From Fibrobacterota bacterium (GTDB taxonomy: Bacteria; Fibrobacterota; Chitinivibrionia; Chitinivibrionales; FEN-1185): 64,000 nucleotides of DNA. The DNA lies in NCBI GenBank assembly GCA_003165595.1, contig PLWQ01000041.1:57517-121516 (forward strand), given 5' to 3'. A program made the position numbers and the translations under genes. Below, piece after piece: positions 34,933-61,595 of the stretch; positions within the stretch are counted from its first letter, which is position 1; each line of letters begins with the position of its first letter. The notes beneath the pieces were generated by a model that worked only from the letters and a program-made list of their open reading frames with translations, was not told the DNA's origin and made no database searches.

Positions 34933-35979
34933 ATGCGCATTCGATCAAGAAGATTCTCCAACGTTCTGCTTGTTCTCAACCTGTTTGCCACGCTTGCAGT
35001 ATCGCAAACGAAGACCAATATTGCGGTTGCCGACCTGGCGGGACAAGGGATCGACGCTTCTACGGCGGCGATTATTTCCGACAGGCTGCGCAGCGAACTG
35101 TTTACAACCGGCACCGTTACGGTCTTAGAACGATCACAGATGCAGGAGATTCTCAAAGAGCAAGGCTTCCAGCAGGCAGGCTGCACATCAGACCAGTGTG
35201 CGATTGAAACGGGTCAAATGCTGGGAGTGAAATATATGGTGGTTGGATCCATAGGGCTTGTGGGACACACGTACACTATTTCGTGCAGGCTTATAGACGT
35301 GTCTACGGGCAAAATGGTTGCTACCGCGCATGTCGATTGCAAATGCGAGATCGACGACATCTTGTCGCGGTCAACGGTTGATCTTTCGCGGAAGCTGGTG
35401 CAGTCTTTTTCCAGTGTCCAAACCAATGCTTCTCCGCCATCTTCGCCCCTTACCGCCGAGACGGGATCACTCAAAATCTCTTCAAGCCCCTCGGGTGCAG
35501 CTCTTCTCGTAAACGATACCGCCAAAGGCAACACTCCGGCGAACATAGACAGCCTTAAGCCCGGCAAATACCAGATAGCCTTGGCGCTGCCGGGATATAG
35601 GAACATTACCGATAATCTTCAGGTTTCCGCGGGAGGGATCCTGGAAAAGACTTATTCTCTTAATTCTTTAACCGGTTCTCGCAACAACAACGGAAAAAAG
35701 CTTTTCCCAATGTGGTCCAAAATTGCGCTCGGCGCCGCAACTGTTGTTGTGGCCGGGACCGGCATCGGAATGGATCGACTTGTAGACCGTGAAGCAACCA
35801 GTTGCGCATCAATTTCCTCGCAATATGCCAATTCCGGTTCCAACGCCTCCTACTCATCGTTCAGCCAGGACTATGCAAACCATTACAACAACGAAACAAA
35901 GTATTCGCTTTACAGAAATGTTTTGTATGGCGTGGCAGGCGTGCTCGCGGCGGGATTCGTTGTTTCATTTTTGTACTGA
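34933..35979 (+). CDS. CsgG-like and PEGA domain envelope protein
   Basis: 348 residues with a signal peptide (FSNVLLVLNLFATLAVSQ). About 28-150 resemble the CsgG/TolB-N-like domain (IAVADLAGQGIDASTAAIIS, VLERSQMQEILKEQGFQ, GVKYMVVGSIGLVGHTYTIS). About 175-240 are a PEGA domain (GSLKISSSPSGAALLVNDTA, PGKYQIALALPGY). Two hydrophobic stretches follow near 255-275 and 330-347. It may act in assembling or anchoring outer-membrane material. It lies 25 bases before the FISUMP lipoprotein gene and after the second GH3 gene. Confidence 0.7.
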   Translation: MRIRSRRFSNVLLVLNLFATLAVSQTKTNIAVADLAGQGIDASTAAIISDRLRSELFTTGTVTVLERSQMQEILKEQGFQQAGCTSDQCAIETGQMLGVKYMVVGSIGLVGHTYTISCRLIDVSTGKMVATAHVDCKCEIDDILSRSTVDLSRKLVQSFSSVQTNASPPSSPLTAETGSLKISSSPSGAALLVNDTAKGNTPANIDSLKPGKYQIALALPGYRNITDNLQVSAGGILEKTYSLNSLTGSRNNNGKKLFPMWSKIALGAATVVVAGTGIGMDRLVDREATSCASISSQYANSGSNASYSSFSQDYANHYNNETKYSLYRNVLYGVAGVLAAGFVVSFLY

Positions 35980-36004
35980 TACCACCAAGGGGGAGCATTC
36001 AATT

Positions 36005-39000
36005 ATGTTGAGAAATGCCGCAGGGCTCACGTGTCTTGTGTTAATGGTGGCCGTGTTGTGTCTGTGCACGCAACTCTCCCCCAATACGCTGAAGATGATC
36101 TCCTTTAGCGACAACTCCAATCCGCCATCGGCTCCGGTAATCAAATCCGCTATTGCAGGAGTGGGCAGCATTACTGTAAGCTGGGATACGGTGAGCGGCG
36201 CTCAATCGTACAACTTGTTTTACCATACAGGACCCACGGTAGACACCACAACCGGAACAAAGATGGCAGGCGTGACATCCCCCGTGCAGATCCCTGGATT
36301 GACAAACGATACGCAGTACGCCATTGCCGTGTGCGCAGCGAACGCGAGCGGAGAATCGGGCCCGAGCAACACAGTAACCGCCATTCCGCAGATGGCTCCG
36401 AGCATTTCCACGCAACCGCAATCGCAGACCGCAACAGTGGGACAAAACGTTACCTTTTCCATTGCCGCCGACGGCACCGCTCCGCTGAGCTACCAATGGA
36501 AAAAGAACGACAGTGTCATTGTTGGAGCGACCAAAGATAGTTTGAGCCTGGCAACCGTGCAGAATTCCAATTCCGGCGCCTACACCGTGGTCGTAAGCAA
36601 TGCTGCCGGGAGCATCGTGAGCAACGCGGCTACGCTTACGGTCACCGCCGCAGCCGTTTCGCCGAGTATTGCAACCCAGCCAGCGTCGCAGACGGCCATG
36701 GCGGGTTCCCGCGTAACCTTTACCGTTGTGGCAACGGGGACCGGCCCGCTAATTTACAAATGGAAGAAAAATGGCGCGACCCTGGCGGATTCGACTTCAA
36801 ACAGCTATACAATCGCATCGGTGGCAAATTCCGATGCGGGCACCTATTCGGTGGTTGTGTCCAACAGCGTAGGGAATGTGGTCAGCCTCGACGCAGTGCT
36901 AACCATTACGTCAACGCCGGTTGCTCCAACGATAACGACACAGCCCCAATCTCAAACCATAACGGTTGGACAAACAGTAACGTTCAGCGTTGCCGCAACC
37001 GGTACCGGGCTGCTTGCCTATCAATGGAAGAAGGACACAACCACCATTTCCGGCGCCACGTCGAGCACCTATTCAATCACCAATGTTCAAAGCGGCAATG
37101 CCGGCAAATATTCCGTATTGGTAAGTGACAGCGTCGGAAAAGTATTAAGCGACAGCGCGGTTCTCACGGTGACTGCAGCTCCGGTTGCGCCAAGCATTTC
37201 GACGCAGCCGCTCGCCCAGACAGTAATTGCCGGCCAAAATGTTACACTGTCGGTAATCGCGGGCGGCACGGCTCCGTTCACCTACCAATGGAAGAAAGAC
37301 ACGGTCTCTATTTCCGGCGCAACATCCAGCAGCCTGTTTCTCTCCGGAGTTCAAGCGGCCAGTGCCGGTACCTATACTGTGGTTGTGTCGAATGCCGTCG
37401 GAAGCGTAGTCAGTAACGGGGCGCTTTTGACGGTCAATGACGCACCCACGACGCCCAGTATAACGACACAGCCGAAATCGCAGAGCGTAACAGCCGGGCA
37501 AAGCGTTACATTCTCCGTTGCAGCAATCGGAACTCCGCCGCTATCCTATCAATGGAAAAGGAACGGGGCGCTCTTAGCCGGCGACACGGCATCTTCGTTC
37601 ACGATCAGCGCGGTAGCGGTATCGGATACAGGAAGCTACACCTTAACGGTTACCAACAACGCGGGAAATGCGGTGAGCATTCCGGCTGTGTTAACGGTGA
37701 CTCAGGCGCCAGTTGCCCCGAACATCACCACACAACCTGCGTCGGACTCCGCAGTTGCCGGGCAGACCGTTACCTTCAGCGTAGTTGCAACCGGAACCGC
37801 ACCGCTTGTCTATCAGTGGTATGTTGGCAGCACCGCAATTTCCGGCGCAACCTCATCAAGTTATGTATTGCCGAATGTGCAAATAGCAAACGCGGGAACC
37901 TACACGGTTGTCGTGTCCAATGGTACTTTACCAAACGCTACAAGCAGCGGCGCTGTGCTCGCGGTAAGTTCGGCGGCGGTGGCGCCAAGCATAACTGCGC
38001 CGCCAAAATCAGATTCAATAACAGCGGGGCAAAGCGTTACCTTTACCGCAACGGCAACCGGAACGGCGCCGCTTTCGTATCAGTGGTATTTGGGCGGAAC
38101 AGCTATTTCCGGGGCCACATCGTCAAGCTATTCAATTCAGAATGCCCAGGCAGCCAATGCGGGAACCTACACCGTTACCGTATCCAACGGCACCTTGCCA
38201 AATGCAACAAGCAGCGGCGCAGTACTTGTTGTAAATCCCCCTCCTGTTGCTCCGAGTATTGCAACCCAACCGCCCACACAAACCGTAACAGCCGGACAAA
38301 ACGTAACTTTCACCGTGGCTGCAACCGGAACCGCACCGCTTGCCTATCAGTGGTATCTCGGCGCTGCCGTAATTTCGGGCGCAACTTCGGCAAGCTACAC
38401 AATCTCGAATGTCCAGGCTTCAAATGCGGGAACCTACACTGTTACCGTATCCAACGGCACTTTGCCTAATGCAACAAGCACTGGCGCAGTACTTACCGTA
38501 AATCCTGCTCCGGTTGCTCCAAGTATCACAACGCAGCCGCTCACGCAAACCGTTACTGCGGGACAAAACGTAGCTTTCACCGTGGCTGCAACCGGAACCG
38601 CACCGCTTGCCTATCAGTGGTATCTCGGCGCTGCCGCAATTTCGGGCGCAACTTCGGCAAGCTATGCCATAACCAACGTCCAGTCTGCCAATGCGGGAAC
38701 CTACACCGTTACCGTATCCAACGGCACCTTGCCGAATGCAACAAGCACCGGCGCAGTACTTACCGTAAATCCTGCTCCTGTTGCTCCGAGCATTACAACT
38801 CAACCGCTCACACAAACCGTTACCGCAGGTCAAAACGTGACATTCACCGTGGTTGCAACCGGAACCGCACCGCTTGCCTATCAGTGGTATCTCGGCGCTG
38901 CCGCAATTTCGGGCGCAACTTCGGCAAGCTATGCCATAACCAGCGTCCAGTCAGCCAATGCGGGAACCTACTCCGTTACCGTATCCAACGGCACCTTGCC

Positions 39001-39640
39001 CAATGCAACAAGCACCGGCGCAGTGCTTACCGTAAATCCCACAGCAGGCACCGTTTTGGACACGGATGGAAACATTTACCATACGGTTACAATAGGAACT
39101 CAAGTGTGGATGGTGGAAAACCTCAAAACCACGCGCTACAACGACGGAACCTCAATTCCACTTATAACGGATGCATCTTCTTGGAGCAGCCTCGCCTCTG
39201 CGGGATTTTCTCGATACAACAACGATTCGACAACCTATGGGAGCACCTACGGTGCACTTTACAATTGGTATGCCGTCAACACGGGCAAGCTTGCTCCAGC
39301 GGGCTGGCATGTGCCGACAGATGCGGAATGGGCAGCGCTTGACACGTATCTTGGCGGCGACGCTGTTGCCGGGGGCACACTCAAAGAAGCAGGAACGACA
39401 CATTGGTTGGCACCCAACACCGGCGCCACGAACTCGTCGGGTTTTTTCGCGCTTCCGGGCGGTTACCGCAGCGACGACGGCACATTCAACAGCATCGGCT
39501 ACGGCGGAGTCTTGTGGTCATCCTCGGCAAACGATGCTGCAAGCTCCTGGTCCCGCAGCATGAGCATCTGTACAATTAATGTCCTGCGCTACAACTATCT
39601 GAGGGGGTATGGGCTTAGCGTCCGGTGCATCAAAAATTAG
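36005..39640 (+). CDS. Giant lipoprotein: FN3, ten Ig-like repeats and a FISUMP domain
   Basis: 1211 residues from the ATG at 36005, preceded by AAGGGGGAG. The signal ends LCLC, a lipobox. About 40-125 are FN3 (SAPVIKSAIAGVGSITVSW). About 130-1014 hold ten Ig-like repeats of ~87 residues, each starting P-S-I-x-T-Q-P and having Y-Q-W-K/Y and G-T-Y-T/S-V-x-V-S-N. The last three are 267-base near-identical DNA repeats. About 1015-1211 are FISUMP (DTDGNIYHTVTIGTQVWMVE, NLKTTRYNDG, WSSSANDA, GLSVRCIK). It is a long stalk carrying a FISUMP head and is likely surface displayed; its ligand is unknown. Confidence 0.85.
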   Translation: MLRNAAGLTCLVLMVAVLCLCTQLSPNTLKMISFSDNSNPPSAPVIKSAIAGVGSITVSWDTVSGAQSYNLFYHTGPTVDTTTGTKMAGVTSPVQIPGLTNDTQYAIAVCAANASGESGPSNTVTAIPQMAPSISTQPQSQTATVGQNVTFSIAADGTAPLSYQWKKNDSVIVGATKDSLSLATVQNSNSGAYTVVVSNAAGSIVSNAATLTVTAAAVSPSIATQPASQTAMAGSRVTFTVVATGTGPLIYKWKKNGATLADSTSNSYTIASVANSDAGTYSVVVSNSVGNVVSLDAVLTITSTPVAPTITTQPQSQTITVGQTVTFSVAATGTGLLAYQWKKDTTTISGATSSTYSITNVQSGNAGKYSVLVSDSVGKVLSDSAVLTVTAAPVAPSISTQPLAQTVIAGQNVTLSVIAGGTAPFTYQWKKDTVSISGATSSSLFLSGVQAASAGTYTVVVSNAVGSVVSNGALLTVNDAPTTPSITTQPKSQSVTAGQSVTFSVAAIGTPPLSYQWKRNGALLAGDTASSFTISAVAVSDTGSYTLTVTNNAGNAVSIPAVLTVTQAPVAPNITTQPASDSAVAGQTVTFSVVATGTAPLVYQWYVGSTAISGATSSSYVLPNVQIANAGTYTVVVSNGTLPNATSSGAVLAVSSAAVAPSITAPPKSDSITAGQSVTFTATATGTAPLSYQWYLGGTAISGATSSSYSIQNAQAANAGTYTVTVSNGTLPNATSSGAVLVVNPPPVAPSIATQPPTQTVTAGQNVTFTVAATGTAPLAYQWYLGAAVISGATSASYTISNVQASNAGTYTVTVSNGTLPNATSTGAVLTVNPAPVAPSITTQPLTQTVTAGQNVAFTVAATGTAPLAYQWYLGAAAISGATSASYAITNVQSANAGTYTVTVSNGTLPNATSTGAVLTVNPAPVAPSITTQPLTQTVTAGQNVTFTVVATGTAPLAYQWYLGAAAISGATSASYAITSVQSANAGTYSVTVSNGTLPNATSTGAVLTVNPTAGTVLDTDGNIYHTVTIGTQVWMVENLKTTRYNDGTSIPLITDASSWSSLASAGFSRYNNDSTTYGSTYGALYNWYAVNTGKLAPAGWHVPTDAEWAALDTYLGGDAVAGGTLKEAGTTHWLAPNTGATNSSGFFALPGGYRSDDGTFNSIGYGGVLWSSSANDAASSWSRSMSICTINVLRYNYLRGYGLSVRCIKN
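38246..39046 (+). repeat. Three tandem 267-base repeats inside the Ig-repeat gene
   Basis: Units start at 38246, 38513 and 38780 and each encodes one 89-residue Ig-like repeat. They are nearly identical over long stretches, so they were duplicated or homogenised recently. Earlier Ig repeats in the gene are much more diverged. Confidence 0.8.
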
Positions 39641-46117: not shown

Positions 46118-47737
46118 TCAGTTGAACAGATAGCCCGGCAGGATAACGCCTTTTGCAGCGAGCGCCTGCGCCTGCGTCACGTTCACCTGATCGCTGGAAC
46201 AGAACAGCGTATCTCCCGAATCCATGTCTCCCACTATCCCGGCGATGCTCGCCGAATCGAGTCCGTTGTAGCGGATATCGACCCAGCTCAGGTTCTTAAG
46301 GCCCGCAAGCGACGGCGCGCTCTTGAGCGAGGAGCATCCATTGATGTTCAGATGCGTGAGAGCGGTAAGGCCGGAGAAATCCGAAAGGAGCGAATCGAGC
46401 CCCTGGCAGTAATGCAGATCGACATACTTGAGTTTTGTCAAGCCGTCGAGGGCCGCAACGGACGTAATCGGCTTGTCGTTGTGGGCATCGAACCATTCCA
46501 GGTTCGCAAGCGAGGAGAGCTTGGAAATGTCGGCAATCCCGCCGCAGTTGTAAATCTGAAGCTGCGTGAGGGTGGTGAGGCTCGCGATTGGGGAAATATC
46601 GGTGAGTCCGTCGCCATGAATCGTGAGGCTCTTGATATTGGTGAGGCCGGCAACGTCGGAAATGTCGGTGAGGTTCTGTGACGCGATGCTGAAGGTGTCG
46701 ATCGATGTGATTCCCTTGAGGAACGACAGCGACGTGCTGAGGCACCCGTCGATGGTAAAGGTGCTCAGGCTCGACAACCCGCTCAACTGGATTGTGTCAA
46801 AAGCGCCGCTCGATCCGAGCGAAAGCACCTTGAGTCCGGGAAGGCTTGAGAGCTTAAGGGAAACAATCTGGCCCAGTCTGCCGAGGTCGATGGTGTCGAT
46901 GACCGCGAGGTTGGTAAGAACAACGGATTTTACCGAGTCGCAGTAGCCGAAATCGATCTTCTTGACCTTGGGCAAATTGGACAGCGTCACCGTCGGCAGC
47001 GCATTATTCGCAATCAGCAAGGTCTGGAGATTGGGAAGTCCGGAAAGACCGGCAACGGTCGTGGTGCTCTGGCCGGCAACCCGCACCCATTGCAGTTTGG
47101 AGAGCGTCGACAGCGCAGAAAAATCCTGGATGCCGTTGGCCCAGCCAAGATCGAGCCAGGTAAGATTGGTAAGTTTCGACAATGCGGAAATGTTGGTAAC
47201 GCCATTGGCGCTGTGAAGACTCAGGCGCTGCAGCGTGGTGAGGTTTGCAAGCGAATCGATGTTCGTGATCTGCCAGCAGCCCTCCAGATCAAGCGTTGAG
47301 ATGTTGGGCAGGTGGCAAATGGGGTTGATGCTGGTGATTCCAAAACAATTGTAACAATCGAGCTCCTGGAGACTGTCGAGCTTGGACAGCGCCGTGAGAT
47401 CCATGAAGCCGGAGCATTCATTGAGGTTGAGATACTTGAGTTTTGTCAGGTGTGACAAAGGGGTAATATCGGTGAAAAGGTTCGAATCGAGATTGAGCCA
47501 CTCCAGCGAGGCGGCACCCTGCAGGAAGGAAAGGTCGCTTAATCCCGACTTGGCAAAATTGGCGTATACCTGGGATCCGATTCCGACCGTGTCGTATTTG
47601 ATAGCGTACGTCGTGTCCCGCTGGACGGCATAGGTGGTGTCCCGTTGGACCGAGGTGGTCTGGGTACATCCGAAGAACTGGGTGCTGGCCGTGAGCATGG
47701 GAACCAACAGAGCAAGTGAGAGAAGAAGTTTTTTCAT
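46118..47737 (-). CDS. Leucine-rich-repeat lipoprotein
   Basis: 539 residues. The signal ends FFGC, a lipobox. Residues about 28-50 repeat QRDTTYA. The rest is a long series of LRRs of about 22 residues (e.g. LEWLNLDSNLFTDITPLSHL, LKYLNLNECSGFMDLTALSK, LTWLDLGWANGIQDFSALST) of the internalin/SDS22-like type. It is probably an outer-membrane-anchored protein-binding or adhesion scaffold. The ribosome binding site is AGGAGGG. Site B3 lies 47 bases upstream, which links it to the same regulon as the VIT/VWA gene and the regulator operon. Confidence 0.8.
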   Translation of the reverse strand: MKKLLLSLALLVPMLTASTQFFGCTQTTSVQRDTTYAVQRDTTYAIKYDTVGIGSQVYANFAKSGLSDLSFLQGAASLEWLNLDSNLFTDITPLSHLTKLKYLNLNECSGFMDLTALSKLDSLQELDCYNCFGITSINPICHLPNISTLDLEGCWQITNIDSLANLTTLQRLSLHSANGVTNISALSKLTNLTWLDLGWANGIQDFSALSTLSKLQWVRVAGQSTTTVAGLSGLPNLQTLLIANNALPTVTLSNLPKVKKIDFGYCDSVKSVVLTNLAVIDTIDLGRLGQIVSLKLSSLPGLKVLSLGSSGAFDTIQLSGLSSLSTFTIDGCLSTSLSFLKGITSIDTFSIASQNLTDISDVAGLTNIKSLTIHGDGLTDISPIASLTTLTQLQIYNCGGIADISKLSSLANLEWFDAHNDKPITSVAALDGLTKLKYVDLHYCQGLDSLLSDFSGLTALTHLNINGCSSLKSAPSLAGLKNLSWVDIRYNGLDSASIAGIVGDMDSGDTLFCSSDQVNVTQAQALAAKGVILPGYLFN

Positions 47738-53424: not shown

Positions 53425-54966
53425 TCAGAATCCCATCCTCAGCGAGAAATTGGCAACCGGAAGCGATGGTCCAAGGTTGTACTCGTATGCCGCGTCTGCC
53501 GCAAAGTACTTCCCCCCCATCCATTCCAGAGGGATCTTGAGGCCGAAGCCGGCGGTGAGTATCCAGGGCTGATCGAATGCGGGGTCTTTCTTGGCGCCGG
53601 CCCGGATGAGCAGCACCTGCCACACCTCCTGCTCGATGCCGCCGGCGAATTTCCACGGCTGATCGCTGTACAGCGGAATTTGACCTTCACAAATAAGAAA
53701 CGTCGAATATCCCGCCTGATAGGTGCCGCCGACGAGCAAAACCGGCGGCTGCGATTCCAGATATTGATCGGAACCATTATTGACTTTTACGTATGTCGGC
53801 AGGTCCTTGCATACAACGCCCAGCCGTATGTGGTCGGCAAGCTCGGCCTGCATTCCCACATCGAGCCCGGCTCCCAGGCTGTTCTGGCTCACGTCCCCGT
53901 CGGCCCGCGCGGGCGTGTTGATGTTGATGAGTTTGACGGTAACTCCCAGAGAAATGGGCCTGAGAAACGGCAGGAGCCTGTTGAACTTGTAGGCGTACGA
54001 AGAGAGGAAATACATTTCGTTCTGCAGGTGGTCGTAATCCGAGATGTAATACAGCGCATGGCCAAACCCGAAATCACGCGTCGCCTTGTTTGCGAAGGAG
54101 GCGGCAAAGAGGTTGAGCTGCTCGAACCGGTACTGATAGGCAAGGGCGATATCCATGTTGGGAACCCAGGCAATTCCCGCCGGATTGTAGAACACGCCGG
54201 TGGCATCATCCGAGGCGGCAACGTAGCATTCGCCCATCGCGCTTGGCCGGGCAAAAAGCGGAATGTTGAGCGAGCTTGAATTCCTGTGGCTCGCGGAGGA
54301 CGTGTCGAAATTGGCCTGATGGCTAAAATTGGAGAGCGTTCCGTTTGCCGCGGCCCAGACCAGACCTGCGGCGAGCACCGCAACAGTCGAAATCACCGGC
54401 TGTATCTCGTTGTGAACCTGCGGACCAAAATAGGGGCCGGCCTTTACCGAATCTTTCCCCGCCGATAATCCGTGCAGCTTGTAGGTGGCCGCTTTTACCA
54501 CGCCGGCAAGCGTGGCCCCGGCCTCCGCCTCCATGCTCACGCGCCGAGACACCTGGGTACTCTGCACGTCCAGCAGGACCAGTGAAATGCCGATGCGGCT
54601 CCCGTTTTTGTCAAGCTCGCCGTACACCATGCGATCGAGCCCGAGGGCCGAGCCGATGGCCGCGACGCAGCGAGGGTCCCTGCAATGCGAGGGAAATTTC
54701 TGTTTGATGCCGGCAAACGCCGTCTCGAGGTCGGCCTGCGGATACACTTTGTAAAACCCGATGTCTCCCAGCGTCTGGGCCACCGCTTCATTCGCTTTGG
54801 CCGCGGTCGCCGCGTCGGCCCCGGTGATGTCGAGGTTAATCACGCCCACGCGGATCTTCGACTGGCTGGCGTCGGGAGCCGGATTCGTCGATTCGTCCTT
54901 TGCGGAAACGCCAAGGGCCGCCACGCACATCCACACGACGAGGCCGGAAATAGCAAACGATTTCAC
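53425..54966 (-). CDS. CsgG-like domain fused to a PorV-like outer-membrane barrel
   Basis: 513 residues from a GTG at 54966 with GGAGG upstream. Signal peptide MKSFAISGLVVWMCVAALGV (20). About 35-180 resemble a CsgG-like domain (IRVGVINLDITGADAATAAK, IGSALGLDRMVYGELDKNGS). About 235-513 match PorV/UPF0164 outer-membrane proteins (LFARPSAMGECYVAASDDAT then GVFYNPAGIAW). The end is ...VANFSLRMGF, a C-terminal Phe typical of outer-membrane barrels. PorV proteins shuttle T9SS cargo; a role in surface attachment is inferred. It is the last gene of a three-gene operon (61237-53425). Confidence 0.7.
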   Translation of the reverse strand: MKSFAISGLVVWMCVAALGVSAKDESTNPAPDASQSKIRVGVINLDITGADAATAAKANEAVAQTLGDIGFYKVYPQADLETAFAGIKQKFPSHCRDPRCVAAIGSALGLDRMVYGELDKNGSRIGISLVLLDVQSTQVSRRVSMEAEAGATLAGVVKAATYKLHGLSAGKDSVKAGPYFGPQVHNEIQPVISTVAVLAAGLVWAAANGTLSNFSHQANFDTSSASHRNSSSLNIPLFARPSAMGECYVAASDDATGVFYNPAGIAWVPNMDIALAYQYRFEQLNLFAASFANKATRDFGFGHALYYISDYDHLQNEMYFLSSYAYKFNRLLPFLRPISLGVTVKLININTPARADGDVSQNSLGAGLDVGMQAELADHIRLGVVCKDLPTYVKVNNGSDQYLESQPPVLLVGGTYQAGYSTFLICEGQIPLYSDQPWKFAGGIEQEVWQVLLIRAGAKKDPAFDQPWILTAGFGLKIPLEWMGGKYFAADAAYEYNLGPSLPVANFSLRMGF

Positions 54967-55018
54967 ACAATCCTCCGGGTTAATTATCCGTGCACGAACT
55001 CAGTGGCGCCGCCGCCTG

Positions 55019-58000
55019 CTATTTGACAAGTACAACCTGCCGCATGTAGTTCTTTTCCTTGCCGCCGGAGTCCTGCACCGTCAGCACGACAAAGTATCTG
55101 CCGTTCTTGCACATCAGCCGGCCATTGACCGGAAACGTTTTCGAATTTTCGTCGGGACCGTCGGAAAGGGTTTCCCATTTCATTTCACCCGACGTGGTGC
55201 GCCCGTCCCACCACAGCCTGTACTGCACCATCTTGGGGGCGCCTTGGTTGACAACCGAGCACACGAGATCGCCAAGCACGCTGTAGATCTTGATCCTGAT
55301 GTTGCGCAGCTGCTGGTCGGGAACGTCGGGTGTAAACGAAATGCACGTGCCCTTGGGCGCGCCGGGCCCGAATTTCGCGGCAAGCAGCGGAAAATCGGAT
55401 GGGCTGCGCAGCGGCGAGAACGGGTTCGGAAGCACAGAAAGGGTGGTCTGTAAGGCACCCGACAGTGACAGCACCGCGTACCGGGAAAAATGGGTGGTGG
55501 TCGCGTTGATTGTCTTCTTGTCAAGCGACAGTTGCGAACTGCCGAGCGCCGTCCACAACAGGCTGTCCTCGCTCCAGGTGCCAACCGCCAGGGGATTGGC
55601 GAGATTGGCCCCCTGCGGGATAGTGAGGGTGATCTGAATGCTGTCGCGCCCATCCTGGCGGAACGTGACGCCATTCAGCTCGGTGATGTCGTACACCGAG
55701 CCCACCACCGTCCGAAGGCCCGTCATCCTGGCAATCTGGTTTGTCAGTGAAGGCGTCAGCATCTGAAACAGCGCCGATTTGTCGATTGGAGCGACGCTGT
55801 CGGGAATGACAATAGTGCATCCGGCGAGGTTGGACATTGTGTCGGCCCCTGTCCCGGATACCAACAGATGCTGGACCGCCAACCCGTATTGCGCCGGATC
55901 GGAGGCTGCGGGATTGAATTCGCCCGAGAGGGAACCGACCTGCGCCCAGATTCTCACGTTGCCCACGAATTTCCTTGCCGGCTTGAATACGCCGTCCGCC
56001 GACATGACGCCCGCGCCTGTCGGCGAGATATTCCACGCGGGCGTTATGACGAACACGTTTTTGCCCGTGTCGAGGCCCTCGGCAATAAATTCGGCCTTCG
56101 ACAGAGACGAGGTAGTGATAGGAAACGGATTCTGGGCGTCTATCCGGCGTACCCGAACCGAGGAAATCCTGGTGCCCGAAACGCGAAGAAACACGGCAAT
56201 CAGCGGAGACGGTATGTACCTTTTGTCAATTCTGATCCTGGTAGTGTCGATGCCGGCCACCAGCCGCAGCGCGCCGGCGGAAGCCGAGGCCCCGGTCCCT
56301 ACGACGGTCGAAAGTCCCCGATTGCTCGTAAGGGTGCCGCCCTGTCCAGAAAGCTGCCACGAAATGCCGTTGGAATCCATCCGAGTCGCCGCAATGAACT
56401 GCGACCCGTAATATCCCTTTATCGTGAATGTTACTTGGGCGCCGGAGGGAAGCAGCGTGGTGTCGCCCGCCGAAGGGGTTATTTCCAACTTTGTCAATTT
56501 TGACGAGTCGGGCGCCACATAGACGCCAAAGGTCTCTTGCGTATATCCATAAATGTCGGCGCCCCGGTAGCCGCGGAAATAATACACGAGCGTGCTTCCG
56601 TCCTTCTGCGGCCGTACCCGGAACGAATAGACCTTAAGCGAATCCTTTATCGTTGCAACGGAAAAGGACTGAGAAGTCGCATCTTTGAAGTAGACGGAAG
56701 CGGAATCCATCGAAAGTGATGATCTCATGACCAGAGAAATCGAATCATTGCTCAGGGCAAGCGTTTCGGCCGTGGCATTGTATGCCGGCAGAGAGACGCT
56801 GTCGACATGGATGGTGGTCTCGGCGGCCGCGATAGACATGGTGTGATAAGCAAGATCCACAATCGAATCCGCCGCGCCGTCCACCGATACGATGTAAGGG
56901 CCCGCTCCCACGCCGCGGACCGTGTCGCGCACCGACAGCGTCTTTACAAGAGGCGACAGGATCTTGATGGACGCGGTCTGGTCGGCGCCCCCGTTCACCA
57001 CCCACCTGCAGGATTTTGAGCCGGGACTCATGTACACGGCAAGGTTGGAAGCATCGTTTTGACCTTCGATGGTGGTCCTTCCCGAACTTACGTAGACCGT
57101 GTCGTTCGGCGAGACCGAGTCGGTGACATAGCCGCTACCGCCGGCCCGTATCACAAAACCGCCGTCGGGCAGGTTGCGCATCTCAAAATAGCCGTTTGCC
57201 TGGCTCGTGGCCGACGCAGTGACCTGGTTGGCGGGTTTGTCGATCAGATTGACAGTTGCGCCAGCCACGGGCGCCTTTGACGCGCTCGACTTGACAATCC
57301 CGTTCACCATGCCGAGGGCCATGAGCGTGTCGGCGCACGCGGTGGTTATCCCGCCGCGCGTGGTGTCGGCCAGGAACCGCGAGTGCGCCACGAAACCGGC
57401 GGCGCTCGAAATCATCTTGTACGTATGGCCGCCGGGAACGCTCGCCGAAAAGTCGCCGTAGGTGGCGCCGCTTGCGGTTGTAAATGTGTCGGTCGATGCG
57501 GTATCGGTGAACCGTACAGTCGCATTCGTGATGGGAGCAATCGCGCTGCTCGCGCCCACCCAGGTCCGTCCGTACACGTACCCGGTGAGCAGCGCCGCGC
57601 CCGCGGGCATCACAACCGACAGCTGCATGGAACTTGACACGTTGATAAGCTTGCTGTACGTTGTAAACCCAATTCTGGATGCGTAGACGGTGTAGGTGCC
57701 GGGGCTCAGCGAAAACGAGAACGAGCCGTCCTGCGACGTGGCGGGGCATTCGTCGATCACCTGGCTTCCGTTAAGGATTTTGACATCAGCGCCTATTATC
57801 GGCGAACCCGTGCCGTTCTTGACGACGCCGGAGACGGTGAACGGATTGGCCTTAAGAACAATGGTCCCGAAATTCAAATTTTGCCCGTAGGCTACGGTCG
57901 TCTTCTTGGGCAGCGAGGCGACATACGACGTTTTGGCCGCGCCCACCGTCCAATCGGCCGCGTAGCACGAAAGCACGAAGTTTCCCAGCGCGTCGGTTGC

Positions 58001-59599
58001 GGCGCGCACGGTGTCGCCGCGGTCCGATACGGCCGTGACGGTCGCCGCGCCGATGCCCGCGTTTGCTTCGTCGAGTACCTTGCCGTACACGGTAGCGTCG
58101 GGCCGCTTCAGAAAGAACGTGTCGACAAGGGTCGCGCCCGAGTCGAGCGTGAGGGTCTGGACAAGCGGCTGGTAGCCCGTCTTGTTTGCCGTGAGGCGGT
58201 ACGTGCCCGCAGGCCTGTCGCGGTACAGGTTACCGTTGAGGTCGGTGTAGAACAGCACCGGCGCCTCAAGCGATCCGCTCAGCACCTCAACATCCATTTC
58301 TACCGCGGCGACCGGGCTTTTCACCGTGTCCAGCCCCGAGGTACCCGAGGTAATGATCCTTTCTCTTGTGAACAACTGCATGGTCCCCATGGCCGGCGCG
58401 CTGTACGTGAAATTGGCAAGGTCGCTTGCCGTGCTGGCTCCCTTGCTGTCGATGGCGAACACTTTCCATGCGTAATGATTGTTGGTGAGCACGGTGTGCG
58501 AGTTGATGGAAACGCGGCCGGTGTCGGTGGCGTCAATGACGCCGTTCTTTCCCGCAAAGTCTCCGGCGGTCACTTCGTTTTGCCACACCACGAGCTGCGC
58601 ATCCGCGCTCTGGGCGCCGGTGGCCGAATAGCTCATGTAAAGGTACACCTTGTAGGTGTTCGCCTTGGCATCAAGATTGGTCCAGGTGAACGTGATGATG
58701 CTGTCTTTCTGATACGTGCGCACCGTATCGCCCCCGAGTCCCGGAGAAATCAGGCGCGGTTTTGCAAGCGAAACGCCCTGGATGGTGAAGCTCTTGGGCA
58801 ACCCGTACCGCGTTGACGTATAGGCCATCTGATTTCCATAATTGTTAAGCACCACCCACGAATAGGTCTGGCCGGGCGATAGCGGGGGCGGGCTGGCCGT
58901 GATGGTGCCCGAAGGGTCGGGCGCCCCGTACACGATCTGCGTCTTGGGGGTTATAGCCTGCCAGATAATGCTCAGGCCGGAAATCTTGATACCGCCCCCC
59001 GCGGTCGAATCGACCGAGAGCGGTTCGTCCGAGAGAATAACGTGATAATAGGGAACGCCGGGGTTTGCGTCCCAGGTAAACGTGGGTGTGAGATCGGTGA
59101 TGTTTCCAATGGGAGTGCGGGTATTAACCGGCTGGTCGGTCTCGACGATCATCTCCATTTCATTCGAGGCGAACACCGTGTCGTGCCCCTGGATGCTTGT
59201 CTTGAACGCTACCACATAGTAATAAACGCCCGGGCCCATACCGGTCTGATCCTTGGGCCGGAATCGGATACCGCGCTTGGGCGGATATCCTCCCAGGAAC
59301 CGGTTGCTTTCCTGCTGAATGGTGCCGTCTTGCAGCGTGTCGACACAAAATTTGTCAACCTTGTAGTTGTAGTTGCTGATGTTCCCGCCGCCCGGCGACT
59401 TGTCAAAATAGAGGACACCCGAATCGGGCGCGGTAAAGCCCGGACGCGCCAGGCCGGTCCATTGCACCCAGACCTGGCTATCGGCTGCAATGGCGGCCAG
59501 CGGAAACTGGGTGAGGATATACGCGGAAGACTGCTGGGCCATGCCGGCAGAAGCCGCGCACAGGACAAGGGCCATCGCGAACCGAAGATTGACGATCAT
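55019..59599 (-). CDS. 1526-residue multidomain surface protein with sorting-type C-terminus
   Basis: Signal peptide (FAMALVLCAASAGMAQ). About 30-470 are FN3-like/Ig-like segments (TPTFTWDANPGVPYYHVILS, IITFTWTNLDAKANTYKVYL). About 500-850 hold four carboxypeptidase-regulatory-like repeats (VYGKVLDEANAGIGAATVTA; VSGVVKNGTGSPIIGADVKI; LLTGYVYGRTWVGASSAIAP; VNGIVKSSASKAPVAGATVN). About 1390-1526 are FlgD-like (SVLPNPFSPLRS, IRIKIYSVLGDLVCSVVN, WWDGRTTSGE, NGRYFVVLTVQDSGG). It lies between a beta-barrel gene and the CsgG/PorV fusion gene in one operon. It is probably a large cell-surface protein; no catalytic domain was seen. Confidence 0.75.
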   Translation of the reverse strand: MIVNLRFAMALVLCAASAGMAQQSSAYILTQFPLAAIAADSQVWVQWTGLARPGFTAPDSGVLYFDKSPGGGNISNYNYKVDKFCVDTLQDGTIQQESNRFLGGYPPKRGIRFRPKDQTGMGPGVYYYVVAFKTSIQGHDTVFASNEMEMIVETDQPVNTRTPIGNITDLTPTFTWDANPGVPYYHVILSDEPLSVDSTAGGGIKISGLSIIWQAITPKTQIVYGAPDPSGTITASPPPLSPGQTYSWVVLNNYGNQMAYTSTRYGLPKSFTIQGVSLAKPRLISPGLGGDTVRTYQKDSIITFTWTNLDAKANTYKVYLYMSYSATGAQSADAQLVVWQNEVTAGDFAGKNGVIDATDTGRVSINSHTVLTNNHYAWKVFAIDSKGASTASDLANFTYSAPAMGTMQLFTRERIITSGTSGLDTVKSPVAAVEMDVEVLSGSLEAPVLFYTDLNGNLYRDRPAGTYRLTANKTGYQPLVQTLTLDSGATLVDTFFLKRPDATVYGKVLDEANAGIGAATVTAVSDRGDTVRAATDALGNFVLSCYAADWTVGAAKTSYVASLPKKTTVAYGQNLNFGTIVLKANPFTVSGVVKNGTGSPIIGADVKILNGSQVIDECPATSQDGSFSFSLSPGTYTVYASRIGFTTYSKLINVSSSMQLSVVMPAGAALLTGYVYGRTWVGASSAIAPITNATVRFTDTASTDTFTTASGATYGDFSASVPGGHTYKMISSAAGFVAHSRFLADTTRGGITTACADTLMALGMVNGIVKSSASKAPVAGATVNLIDKPANQVTASATSQANGYFEMRNLPDGGFVIRAGGSGYVTDSVSPNDTVYVSSGRTTIEGQNDASNLAVYMSPGSKSCRWVVNGGADQTASIKILSPLVKTLSVRDTVRGVGAGPYIVSVDGAADSIVDLAYHTMSIAAAETTIHVDSVSLPAYNATAETLALSNDSISLVMRSSLSMDSASVYFKDATSQSFSVATIKDSLKVYSFRVRPQKDGSTLVYYFRGYRGADIYGYTQETFGVYVAPDSSKLTKLEITPSAGDTTLLPSGAQVTFTIKGYYGSQFIAATRMDSNGISWQLSGQGGTLTSNRGLSTVVGTGASASAGALRLVAGIDTTRIRIDKRYIPSPLIAVFLRVSGTRISSVRVRRIDAQNPFPITTSSLSKAEFIAEGLDTGKNVFVITPAWNISPTGAGVMSADGVFKPARKFVGNVRIWAQVGSLSGEFNPAASDPAQYGLAVQHLLVSGTGADTMSNLAGCTIVIPDSVAPIDKSALFQMLTPSLTNQIARMTGLRTVVGSVYDITELNGVTFRQDGRDSIQITLTIPQGANLANPLAVGTWSEDSLLWTALGSSQLSLDKKTINATTTHFSRYAVLSLSGALQTTLSVLPNPFSPLRSPSDFPLLAAKFGPGAPKGTCISFTPDVPDQQLRNIRIKIYSVLGDLVCSVVNQGAPKMVQYRLWWDGRTTSGEMKWETLSDGPDENSKTFPVNGRLMCKNGRYFVVLTVQDSGGKEKNYMRQVVLVK

Positions 59600-59653
59600 G
59601 GAAAAATCCTTTCGGAAACCGAAGACTCACCGTTTGCAAACCGAGAAACTCAA

Positions 59654-59751
59654 TGACTCACTACAGAGGCACAGAGAAAATCAAGTGGGAAGCACGAGAG
59701 ACCCCTTTTTTAGTCTTCTTCTTCTCTGTGTTCTCTGTGACTCCGCGGTGA
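59654..59751. repeat. Dispersed CACAGAG repeat, inverted pair
   Basis: TGACTCACTACAGAGGCACA at 59654 and, on the other strand, TTCTCTGTGTTCTCTGTGAC at 59722. They match the repeat at 10332-10352 and could form a stem between two operon genes. Confidence 0.55.
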
Positions 59752-59770
59752 ATGCATTTTTTCATCCCGC

Positions 59771-61237
59771 CTAGAAATGATAGTACACTCCAACTTTGAA
59801 CGCCGGGAGCGGAACGACGTCGAGTTCGAACGCCAATTGAGTTTTTGTTCCCAGGGCCGCGCCGAGATTGAGAATGGGAATCATGGCCGCGTCGCCCATC
59901 CTCATCCAGCTGATCTGCTTGTTGTTGCGCACGGCGTTGCCGAGAATGTGATTCTGATCGCCCACGCGCATATCCATCGAAAAGACTCCAAGGTTGATAA
60001 ATGCGCCATACAGCTGTCCCGACAGAATGATGACGTTGTCCACGGTGATAGCCGCATCGAGGTCCACGACACGGCTCACGGAACCCGCGCTGTCGGTGAT
60101 GGTGTGCACGTGGTATGCCTCAATGTCTCCAAACAGTTTTGTATATGAGAGAGACAGGCCGCTCGGGATGATGTCGAACGTGAGGGTATGTCCCTGGGGA
60201 AGCTTCCAGGTGGCGTCTTCGTTCGAGGTGTAGACCACGCTGTCGACGCTGTTCTGCTGAAAATTATTGAGCATGTCCGATGAGGCAAGGTTGGCTGGAT
60301 TCTGAAGATCAAGGTTTACCTTGAATGTCTTTGGATCGACAAAGAACGGCAGGTAGTATTTGGCGACGGTGGACCCTTGTGCCTTTGTGTCAACGCCGAA
60401 CCTTGACGTAAGCGTAAACCGCCAGTACTTTATGCCAAACGACGTGGACCACGCCTCTGCCTGGTAATGGCCGATTGCCTCGCCGTACACCTTGTCCGAA
60501 CCGTAGTCTATGGGCTCCCGGGGGAGCGAAGCCGCGGCGGGGCCGCTTTGTTCCAGCTTGAAATACCCCAGCATGTCGACATCCATTTTCGCCTGCATGT
60601 CGAGCCGGAAAATGTGCCGGTGCAGGTTCGCGGCAACCACGAGATCCTTGGTGATTCTATACGCGTAGCCGAAGGTCATGGTTTCCCATCCAAGCGTCGC
60701 ATCAACCGGCACGTTGATGGCGCCCCGCAGAAACAGCATGGCGTGGGTGCTGGAGCCGTTGTTGTTCATGGTGGTGTCGTAACTGAGCAGCATATCGGCG
60801 TTTCCGAGGGTATTGACGTAGTTGAGGTACACGTTCTGGACATCCGAGAAACTGGCTACGCCGCCGAGCATGGGGACATCCACGCGGATCGTTGTGTTGG
60901 CGAACTGGGCGGCGCCGGCCTGAGGCTGGAATTCCTGTCCGCCCGACTGTTGCTGACCCAATTGATCGGAGATTTTGGTCCACAGGTCGGAGGCCAGGCC
61001 CTTGGAAATCAGATTACCTTGCTCATAAGGAAAATTGACGGCCGCATAGCCCTGGCCGTAATCGAACGAGACGTCGGTGGGCGCATGCAGAAGATCGTAA
61101 TTGAATCCAAACGTCAGTTTTGCATTGAGGGTCGGCGGATTCACCGAGGCATTCAATCCGCCGGGCATGCTGCTCTGCGCCTGGGTCAAAACAACCAGGA
61201 CGCATGCCACCAAGAATGCGGCAATTCTCGTTCTCAT
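59771..61237 (-). CDS. Outer-membrane beta-barrel-like protein, first gene of the envelope operon
   Basis: 488 residues from the ATG at 61237, with AAGGTGG seven bases upstream; the frame opens two codons earlier at a TTG. Signal peptide RIAAFLVACVLVVLTQAQ. The body has many aromatic-ended beta-strand-like segments (TFGYAYRITKDLVVAANLHR, TSFGIKYWRFTLTSRFGVDT, AFELDVVPLPAFKVGVYYHF) and ends in Phe, as outer-membrane barrels do. It is followed by the 1526-residue surface protein and the CsgG/PorV fusion. The three genes probably build one envelope structure. Confidence 0.6.
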   Translation of the reverse strand: MRTRIAAFLVACVLVVLTQAQSSMPGGLNASVNPPTLNAKLTFGFNYDLLHAPTDVSFDYGQGYAAVNFPYEQGNLISKGLASDLWTKISDQLGQQQSGGQEFQPQAGAAQFANTTIRVDVPMLGGVASFSDVQNVYLNYVNTLGNADMLLSYDTTMNNNGSSTHAMLFLRGAINVPVDATLGWETMTFGYAYRITKDLVVAANLHRHIFRLDMQAKMDVDMLGYFKLEQSGPAAASLPREPIDYGSDKVYGEAIGHYQAEAWSTSFGIKYWRFTLTSRFGVDTKAQGSTVAKYYLPFFVDPKTFKVNLDLQNPANLASSDMLNNFQQNSVDSVVYTSNEDATWKLPQGHTLTFDIIPSGLSLSYTKLFGDIEAYHVHTITDSAGSVSRVVDLDAAITVDNVIILSGQLYGAFINLGVFSMDMRVGDQNHILGNAVRNNKQISWMRMGDAAMIPILNLGAALGTKTQLAFELDVVPLPAFKVGVYYHF

Positions 61238-61595
61238 AGGCAAACCACCTTGTGCAAAAACCAGTTTGGGGCATCTCGACGGGAAACCGACGGGCGAAGA
61301 CAGGGCGTTTTATCAATATTTCTTGTGAGTGAGGGACACAGGTTATTATATCCCCACAGAAAGATGCCTGTCAAGGCCAAATCGGGGACGAACCGGGATT
61401 GCGGTTGCAGTCGCCGGGAAGAGAAAAACGAAAGCGTTCCCTATTCTGCCGGCGCACTTAGTTCGGGAAAATTGTTCCGAGGATTGTTGACCCGACGGCA
61501 GCCAATGCGGCAGCGACTTGCGCGGACATTGAATCCTCGCTTCCCTTCTGGTATTTTTGCCTCAGGCCGACCTGACCTTGGGCACCGAGGCATCA
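61238..61595. other. Intergenic region before the methyltransferase
   Basis: Divergent region. GGAAAATTGTTCC at 61466-61478 resembles the palindrome at 47850-47865. No other signal or gene is seen. Confidence 0.35.

Follow-up and report, generated by a model that had tools for sequence, protein, structure and literature searches.

Three adjacent minus-strand genes of a Fibrobacterota bacterium, here named bar, big, and fus, encode two outer-membrane barrels and a giant protein of surface type, which together probably make up a dedicated complex for surface anchoring. They lie in the window (the whole 64,000-nt stretch of DNA that was analyzed), where an initial annotation had described three consecutive minus-strand genes; all three open reading frames are indeed present on that strand (Table 1). 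For bar, an in-frame ATG at 61237 is a likelier start than the TTG at 61243. The genes are separated by gaps of 171 nt (bar-big) and 52 nt (big-fus), and gaps in the orthologous cassettes are mainly short, with 4-nt overlaps in some. The cassette region contains six promoter-like sites against a mean of 3.8 after shuffling, a class of site that is not clearly enriched.

Table 1. Features of the bar-big-fus cassette, in coordinates of the window
Feature	Coordinates	Strand	Description
bar	59771..61243	minus	ORF, 490 aa; TTG start; predicted outer-membrane barrel
big	55019..59599	minus	ORF, ATG start, 1526 aa; carboxypeptidase-regulatory repeats and T9SS/FlgD-Ig-like C-terminal domain
fus	53425..54966	minus	ORF, GTG start, 513 aa; TolB-N/CsgG-superfamily domain and PorV/FadL-type barrel
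Perfect sigma-70-type consensus, TTGACA-18-TATAAT	61374-61345	minus	Upstream of bar; one 12/12 match, putative function
big most conserved block, residues 201-250	58850..58999	minus	Mean conservation 0.74 versus 0.41-0.62 elsewhere
big best carboxypeptidase-regulatory repeat, residues 588-655	57635..57838	minus	Pfam
big C-terminal domain, residues 1380-1526	55022..55462	minus	Related to T9SS type A sorting domains/FlgD Ig
fus N-terminal domain, residues 36-172	54451..54861	minus	TolB-N/LpoB/CsgG-superfamily fold
fus Cys95-x4-Cys100 pair	54667..54684	minus	In N-terminal domain; both Cys in 24/25 orthologues
fus hydrophobic helix, residues 188-207	54346..54405	minus	Between N-terminal domain and barrel
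fus PorV/FadL-type barrel, residues 223-513	53428..54300	minus	Contains NPAG motif, residues 261-264

The gene order in other Fibrobacterota had been set beforehand as a refuting test, and the bar-big-fus order was found to be kept far beyond chance. It was present in all 21 loci where the contig extended far enough. big lay directly upstream of fus in 26/26 loci compared; bar was present at 21 of these, and the remaining 5 contigs start at or inside big. Among 167 Fibrobacterota genomes, bar was found in 45, fus in 44, and both in 43. A scan of 84,980 species, which used two peptide patterns that missed divergent Fibrobacterota copies and so leaves other phyla possible, returned 26 cassette-type loci, all titled as Fibrobacteres-type organisms. 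The same scan returned 10 loci from other phyla that matched the barrel stretch alone. A limited literature search, on which we base no wider claim, found no description of the fusion or of the gene trio.

The fusion of a second domain to a PorV/UPF0164-like barrel, which had been proposed for fus, is real. The closest solved fold to the fus barrel was PorV in the type IX secretion system (T9SS) translocon (8gl6_F and 6h3i_F; Z of 29.9 over 276 and 274 residues), and comparison of the model indicates the 14-strand FadL-type barrel fold of PorV. The NPAG motif was invariant in 25/25 fus orthologues, and UPF0164 matched just above its cutoff (9.8e-5). The PorV_fam match, at 5.3e-14, was nevertheless below cutoff (52.5 of 90 bits), and fus scored far below the NCBI equivalog T9SS_OM_PorV (17.3 versus 250 bits required).

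Other FadL-family barrels also resembled fus. FadL gave a Z of 28.8, the range for FadL, TodX, and CymD was 25 to 29, and the Toluene_X (FadL) profile was matched by 7/25 fus orthologues. These near-equal matches, together with FadL as the best match of bar, would suit two FadL-type barrels that import hydrophobic substrates, with big as a surface substrate-binding protein. Such an uptake system is highly improbable in our judgment, given that no catabolic genes were recognized among the recurrent neighbor clusters and that known FadL systems include, to our knowledge, neither a TolB-N domain fused to the barrel nor a linked 1,500-aa Ig-type protein. BamG-type chains (9n2d_B, 9hjm_F, and 9hiv_F) were likewise among the best fold matches of the fus barrel (Z of 24.5 to 24.7), as might be expected if the cassette were an outer-membrane protein assembly accessory in the manner of BamG-BamH, in which a FadL-family barrel bound to BamA keeps a large extracellular subunit positioned above the site of folding. 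PMC12611786 describes BamG as holding extracellular BamH, reports the two proteins from the majority of FCB phyla, and finds that both behave as essential in Flavobacterium. We find a BamG-type role highly doubtful, since PorV and FadL fit fus better and since most Fibrobacterota genomes have no cassette, in contrast with the essentiality described for BamG and BamH.

The N-terminal domain of fus had been called CsgG-like. By profile relation and modeled fold, it is a member of the TolB-N/LpoB/CsgG superfamily, and neither comparison refuted that assignment. The model aligned with the TolB N-terminal domain with a Z of 11.9 (120 residues, 2.6 Å, 22% identity) and with LpoB in Foldseek at 9.3e-6. 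In hhalign, the domain matched the Pfam CsgG-scoring proteins of its own genome with a probability of 99.0 (E = 7e-18, 110 columns), versus 0.1 for an unrelated control. A Cys pair resembling Cys95-x4-Cys100, which is possibly a disulfide, also occurs in those proteins. The sequence profile of the domain matched the PDB weakly (LpoB, E = 0.048). Pfam CsgG had no match in this fus at E ≤ 1 or among the 25 fus orthologues at E ≤ 0.01, DUF3280 was the sole weak CsgG-kind Pfam match of fus (0.0056), and neither the FlgO nor the FlgT Pfam profile was matched by fus or its 25 orthologues. FlgO matches weakly in another CsgG protein of the window (34933-35979).

What did not stand was the pore part of the CsgG likeness. 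The membrane hairpins of CsgG form its 36-strand pore, and the fus domain is, as modeled, a soluble TolB-N/LpoB-type fold without hairpins or pore part, and so offers no grounds for predicting a channel of the CsgG kind. A CsgG-type secretion channel, in which fus N-terminal domains would oligomerize into a pore exporting big, could appeal to the relation with the genome's CsgG-scoring domains; those proteins, however, themselves match only about positions 33 to 102 of 210 (one from 7). Because the modeled domain has only the bare alpha/beta TolB-N elements and fus has no Pfam CsgG match, the channel is barely credible and was rejected. That no CsgG entry stood among the fold matches listed carries no weight in this rejection, as barrel structures took up those lists. 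Between this domain and the barrel lies a hydrophobic helix with a best-19-residue hydropathy of 1.82 in this fus; values of at least 1.6, in the transmembrane range, were found in 9/25 orthologues, which is an awkward fit with a simple outer-membrane topology.

big had been described as an FN3/carboxypeptidase-regulatory/FlgD-like protein, and the last two of these likenesses held. Pfam CarboxypepD_reg matched at 1.4e-37 in five stretches, whereas fn3 (PF00041) gave no Pfam match in big at E ≤ 1. FlgD_ig was found in 8/23 orthologues, and the C-terminal domain matched 20 T9SS sorting domains of its own genome with an hhalign probability of 97.1 (E = 6e-11). Two internal segments of big used as controls scored 0.1 and 0.3; a carboxypeptidase-regulatory segment scored 68, so that part of the C-terminal signal may reflect a general Ig-like fold. 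TIGR04183 was matched at E ≤ 0.05 by 3/23 orthologues, the big of the window not among them, and the last residue was Lys or Arg in 23/23. The orthologues are of near-constant length and share 28 to 44% identity over nearly the whole protein. The suggestion that big is cargo-like needs amending: it is one conserved protein and not variable cargo.

The beta-barrel-like character proposed for bar was borne out as a predicted outer-membrane barrel. The protein has a signal-peptide-like N terminus and a C-terminal Phe, the latter seen in 20/20 orthologues, none of which had a Pfam match at E ≤ 0.1. Its model was weak (mean pLDDT of 68) and consisted mostly of strands, with FadL as the best Foldseek match (3.8e-6).

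The genome that carries the cassette also encodes SprA (E = 2.3e-130) and has 142 matches to T9SS-type sorting domains at E ≤ 0.01. SprA was present in 167/167 Fibrobacterota genomes, 121 of which lack the cassette. Since SprA is universal, the cassette is best regarded as an accessory and not as a separate export machine; for the same reason, T9SS presence does not discriminate between genomes and was rejected as the factor deciding cassette presence. Of the dedicated export or surface-display unit proposed at the outset, display is plausible, given the PorV-type barrel, the T9SS-like C-terminal domain, and the conserved linkage, and any export role would pass to the T9SS.

In the T9SS, the pore is SprA, and PorV is a shuttle or anchor. 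The reading we favor, at a rough probability of 0.45, is that the cassette encodes a dedicated outer-membrane and surface complex that works with the T9SS of the phylum, fus being a private PorV-type acceptor that anchors big. big, which is probably exported by the T9SS, would cross the outer membrane via SprA, and its C-terminal domain would then be received and held by fus, much as SprF holds SprB. The N-terminal domain of fus would stay in the periplasm and may couple the barrel to a periplasmic partner in peptidoglycan synthesis, the Tol system, or the T9SS; in Bacteroidota, such a coupling role is filled by separate proteins such as PorE. bar would be the second barrel of the same complex, and together the genes would yield a fixed structure of the envelope rather than an enzyme cargo. 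As precedent, PMC9143113 describes PorP-like FadL-family barrels that bind and anchor a CTD protein, as SprF does for the adjacent giant SprB. This explanation is supported by the conserved order, by PorV as the closest fold, by the relation of the big C-terminal domain to sorting domains, and by the TolB-like N-terminal domain; it is weakened by the low PorV equivalog score, the scarcity of TIGR04183 matches, the Ig-like share that the C-terminal signal of big may contain, the many genomes without the cassette, the transmembrane-range helix of some fus orthologues, and the weak bar model.

The distribution of the cassette bears on a different reading, in which it builds an outer-membrane structure (collar, disk, or anchor) serving the flagellum or swimming cells, with the TolB-N-type domain acting like FlgO or FlgT, the flagellar ring proteins of Vibrio. 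bar or fus was found in 46/63 genomes with flagellin over cutoff versus 0/104 without. G031, a 96% complete genome from the same genus, has neither flagellin nor FlgH nor the cassette, and it has kept ParA-M23, an old neighbor gene; genus g37 has flagellin and the cassette, and its sister genus g38 has neither. All independent pairs differing in both traits go in the same direction, but such contrasts were too few for the association to reach significance (on average 2.5/5 independent pairs, median P of 0.25) on a tree for which RpoB was found in 58/71 genomes, with 13 absent (G010, G032, and G043 among them) and partial rows for G042 and G038. Moreover, 17/63 flagellin genomes lack the cassette, no flagellar gene was recognized among the recurrent neighbor clusters, and flagellin is also a proxy for lifestyle in general. 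A neighboring GAF-SpoIIE gene, taken as a control along with ParA-M23, shows the same distribution pattern as the cassette, so clade history may explain the flagellin association, and the flagellar reading is the weaker for it. On balance, we regard a flagellar role as unlikely. Distinctly less probable is the full proposal that a T9SS-type barrel, fused to a TolB/FlgO-type periplasmic domain and linked to a 1,500-aa surface protein and a second barrel, forms a fixed outer-membrane structure (flagellar collar or envelope anchor) serving flagellated Fibrobacterota; we know of no outer-membrane components shared by the T9SS and the flagellum. The flagellar and T9SS readings overlap, in that a flagellar structure could use T9SS-derived parts.

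Replacement of the flagellar L-ring by the cassette was also considered and rejected. FlgH was tested in 66 genomes, including all 45 with bar, and matched in 54 (53 over cutoff); 41/45 bar-bearing genomes have it, the exceptions being G010, G015, G032, and G034.

If the favored T9SS reading is true, the cassette gives a single giant protein an outer-membrane acceptor of its own, in which the domain for periplasmic coupling is part of the barrel protein itself, and it is conserved over much of Fibrobacterota, a phylum with little-studied envelope biology. A flagellar link, if true, would join the flagellum to components of type IX secretion. Under either reading, the three genes make a short list that can be tested.

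Compared with known systems, the N-terminal domain of fus shares its alpha/beta fold with the TolB N-terminal domain, LpoB, CsgG, and FlgO, and the CsgG-scoring proteins of the genome resemble it in profile and in their Cys-x4-Cys pattern; unlike the known members, it is fused to an outer-membrane barrel and has neither the CsgG hairpins nor the TolB propeller. With FadL/TodX transporters, fus shares the barrel fold and an NPA-type motif in the N-terminal plug, but the cassette has an extra domain, conserved partners, and no recognized catabolic context. In BamG-BamH of the Bacteroidota BAM complex, a FadL-family barrel holds a large extracellular protein, as proposed for the cassette, which differs in not being universal, in having an N-terminal TolB-N domain, and in fitting BamG less well than PorV. 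The T9SS proteins PorV and PorP-like/SprF, the latter with SprB, have the FadL-type barrel fold in common with fus, and, as for SprF-SprB, the gene beside the barrel encodes a giant protein whose C-terminal domain is of sorting type, in a genome with SprA. Unlike these systems, the cassette has a fused TolB-N-type domain and a second, unrelated barrel gene, fus falls far under the PorV equivalog, and big is conserved along its whole length.

The genes bar (encoding a predicted outer-membrane barrel), big (a giant protein) and fus (a fusion of an N-terminal domain to a PorV/FadL-type barrel) form a conserved three-gene envelope unit. In the window, intergenic gaps of 171 nt (bar/big) and 52 nt (big/fus) separate the genes, and a perfect match to the sigma-70 consensus lies ~100 nt 5′ of bar. 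A GH3 gene on the same strand follows 290 nt 3′ of the cassette; comparison of neighbors showed that it is not a recurrent 3′ neighbor in other genomes.

Genes of the cassette in the window
Gene	Position	Strand	Order in transcription
bar	59771-61243 (likely start, 61237)	minus	first
big	55019-59599	minus	second
fus	53425-54966	minus	third

The fus protein was searched against 167 Fibrobacterota genomes, and bar was searched there as a profile. Matches to fus below 1e-30 were found in 36 genomes, and 8 further genomes had matches of 1.6e-23 to 8.4e-14, mostly on the barrel half. The other listed matches were weaker, covered the N-domain alone or a short barrel stretch, and were located in different proteins. 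ORFs similar in size to L125, a 796-aa PorV-family protein on contig C20 of the window's genome, account for the short barrel hits in many of the other genomes; the barrel of L125 appears, on reading its sequence, to be interrupted by a long insert resembling a beta-propeller. The bar profile matched in 45/167 genomes, none of which held a second full-length copy. Both genes were present in 43 genomes and at least one in 46. Since the contig of G024 (fus without bar) starts at big and bar of G032 (bar without fus) is close to a contig end, these two single-gene cases are probably assembly gaps; the other genome with bar and without fus, G010, is 70% complete. Only G019 (8% contamination) carried an extra fus and the end of an extra big, on a short contig.

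The gene order described by the initial annotation is shared by other Fibrobacterota. The end of big was directly 5′ of fus in all of the first 29 other loci matched. Among 26 named loci, assigned by their titles to Chitinivibrionia/Chitinispirillia-type Fibrobacteres, big was 5′ of fus in 26 and bar was 5′ of big in 21, the contigs of the remaining 5 starting at or within big. The big protein was 1,470 to 1,578 aa long in 22 of these loci (the other 4 copies were truncated by a contig end or divided over two frames) and was 28 to 44% identical to that of the window across almost its full length.

Carboxypeptidase-regulatory repeats were found in 23/23 big orthologues, PEGA in 22 and FlgD_ig in 8, while TIGR04183, the type IX secretion system (T9SS) type A sorting domain, was found in just 3. 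In profile-profile comparison, the C-terminal domain of big scored 97.1% against 20 sorting domains taken from the window's genome; two controls scored 0.1 and 0.3, and a third, a carboxypeptidase-regulatory repeat, scored 68. In 17/20 of these reference proteins, no more than 6 residues separated the end of the matched domain from the stop. For bar, none of 20 orthologues had a Pfam match, and no profile relation to the fus barrel was detectable; the barrel model was weak, and its best match was FadL. All 20 end in Phe, and a terminal Phe is an expected feature of BAM substrates.

The predicted structure of fus (pLDDT 83, pTM 0.77) bore out the proposed fusion, with an alpha/beta domain (residues 38 to 165), a hydrophobic helix (188 to 207) and, after short plug helices, a PorV-like barrel (272 to 512). 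Among solved structures, the modeled barrel best matched the PorV subunit of the T9SS translocon (Z 29.9 over 276 residues at 19% identity), followed by FadL (Z 28.8) and BamG (Z 24.7). The modeled N-domain matched that of TolB (Z 11.9 over 120 residues at 22% identity) and also LpoB; by sequence profile alone, matches to solved structures were weak (LpoB, E 0.048). Against domains of the window's genome that score with Pfam CsgG, the N-domain gave a profile-profile probability of 99.0 (unrelated control, 0.1), indicating a relation. Those proteins have a similar Cys-x4-Cys pattern but they, too, align with the CsgG profile chiefly in its first half. The earlier term "CsgG-like" holds for the superfamily but is misleading as to function. 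One of the genome's nine CsgG matches is a CsgG-PEGA protein in the window (34933-35979, plus strand; CsgG 1.1e-11), and the end of its gene is overlapped by a 1,283-aa ORF encoding roughly ten Ig domains together with a Fib_succ_major domain (35789-39640, plus strand).

In many relatives, HU/IHF-like and XerC-like genes (named from sequence, without a search) are 5′ of the cassette, and a GAF-SpoIIE phosphatase gene convergent to fus (L157 to L160), a TPR protein gene and a ParA-M23 gene are 3′. The last encodes a conserved ~610-aa fusion of a ParA-type ATPase with an M23-peptidase-like domain (domains likewise named from sequence; L161, L162 and C36) and is present in 33/66 genomes. The window's genome carries the GAF-SpoIIE (C36:20013-21518) and ParA-M23 genes on contig C36 and the cassette on C28; the cassette has therefore been relocated as a unit.

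Flagellin was above the cutoff in 63/167 genomes, and bar or fus was present in 46 of these versus 0/104 others. The 17 flagellin genomes without the cassette were G002, G042, G044 to G055, G146, G164 and G165. The GAF-SpoIIE gene occurred in 41/66 genomes, none of them flagellin free, and its product is possibly a motility regulator. In G031, a 96%-complete genome of the window's genus, ParA-M23 is retained, but flagellin, FlgH, the cassette and the GAF-SpoIIE gene are all missing. PMC4704652 regards flagella as ancestral in the phylum, with a loss in Fibrobacteraceae, making clade history a real confounder. In pairs chosen from an RpoB tree of 58 genomes for differing in flagellin, the cassette differed in the same way in 2.5/5 on average and never in the opposite way (median p 0.25). 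The GAF-SpoIIE result was identical, and ParA-M23 followed flagellin in 0.5/5 pairs. The association of the cassette with flagellin is a lead, not a result.

The T9SS translocon protein SprA was found in 167/167 genomes (above the cutoff in 159), and the sorting-domain family had 142 matches at E≤0.01 in the window's genome, indicating that T9SS export is available. Use of T9SS by Fibrobacter succinogenes cellulases has been proposed (PMC6851124). A GH3 enzyme in the window (32547-34904, plus strand) has its sorting-type (Por_Secre_tail) domain near the N terminus (residues 75 to 144), not at the C terminus; a second GH3 (29513-31888) has a weak match at a comparable position. The window also encodes a 539-aa leucine-rich-repeat protein (46118-47737, minus strand; LRR_4, 3.4e-35).

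PMC9143113 describes PorV-type and PorP-type barrels of the FadL family that accept and anchor proteins bearing a C-terminal sorting domain; there, SprF holds the giant SprB, encoded next to it. The cassette shows the same pairing of a FadL-family barrel with an adjacent giant. This precedent and pairing, together with available T9SS export, favor a reading in which fus would accept and anchor big as its private partner, its N-domain serving as a putative built-in periplasmic coupler; the hydrophobic helix leaves room for more than one topology. No earlier description of the cassette was found among the entries listed by literature searches. Of the "dedicated export or surface-display unit" first suggested, surface display is the plausible part: the cassette is best regarded as a novel form of PorV/PorP-type surface anchoring and not as a new export channel.
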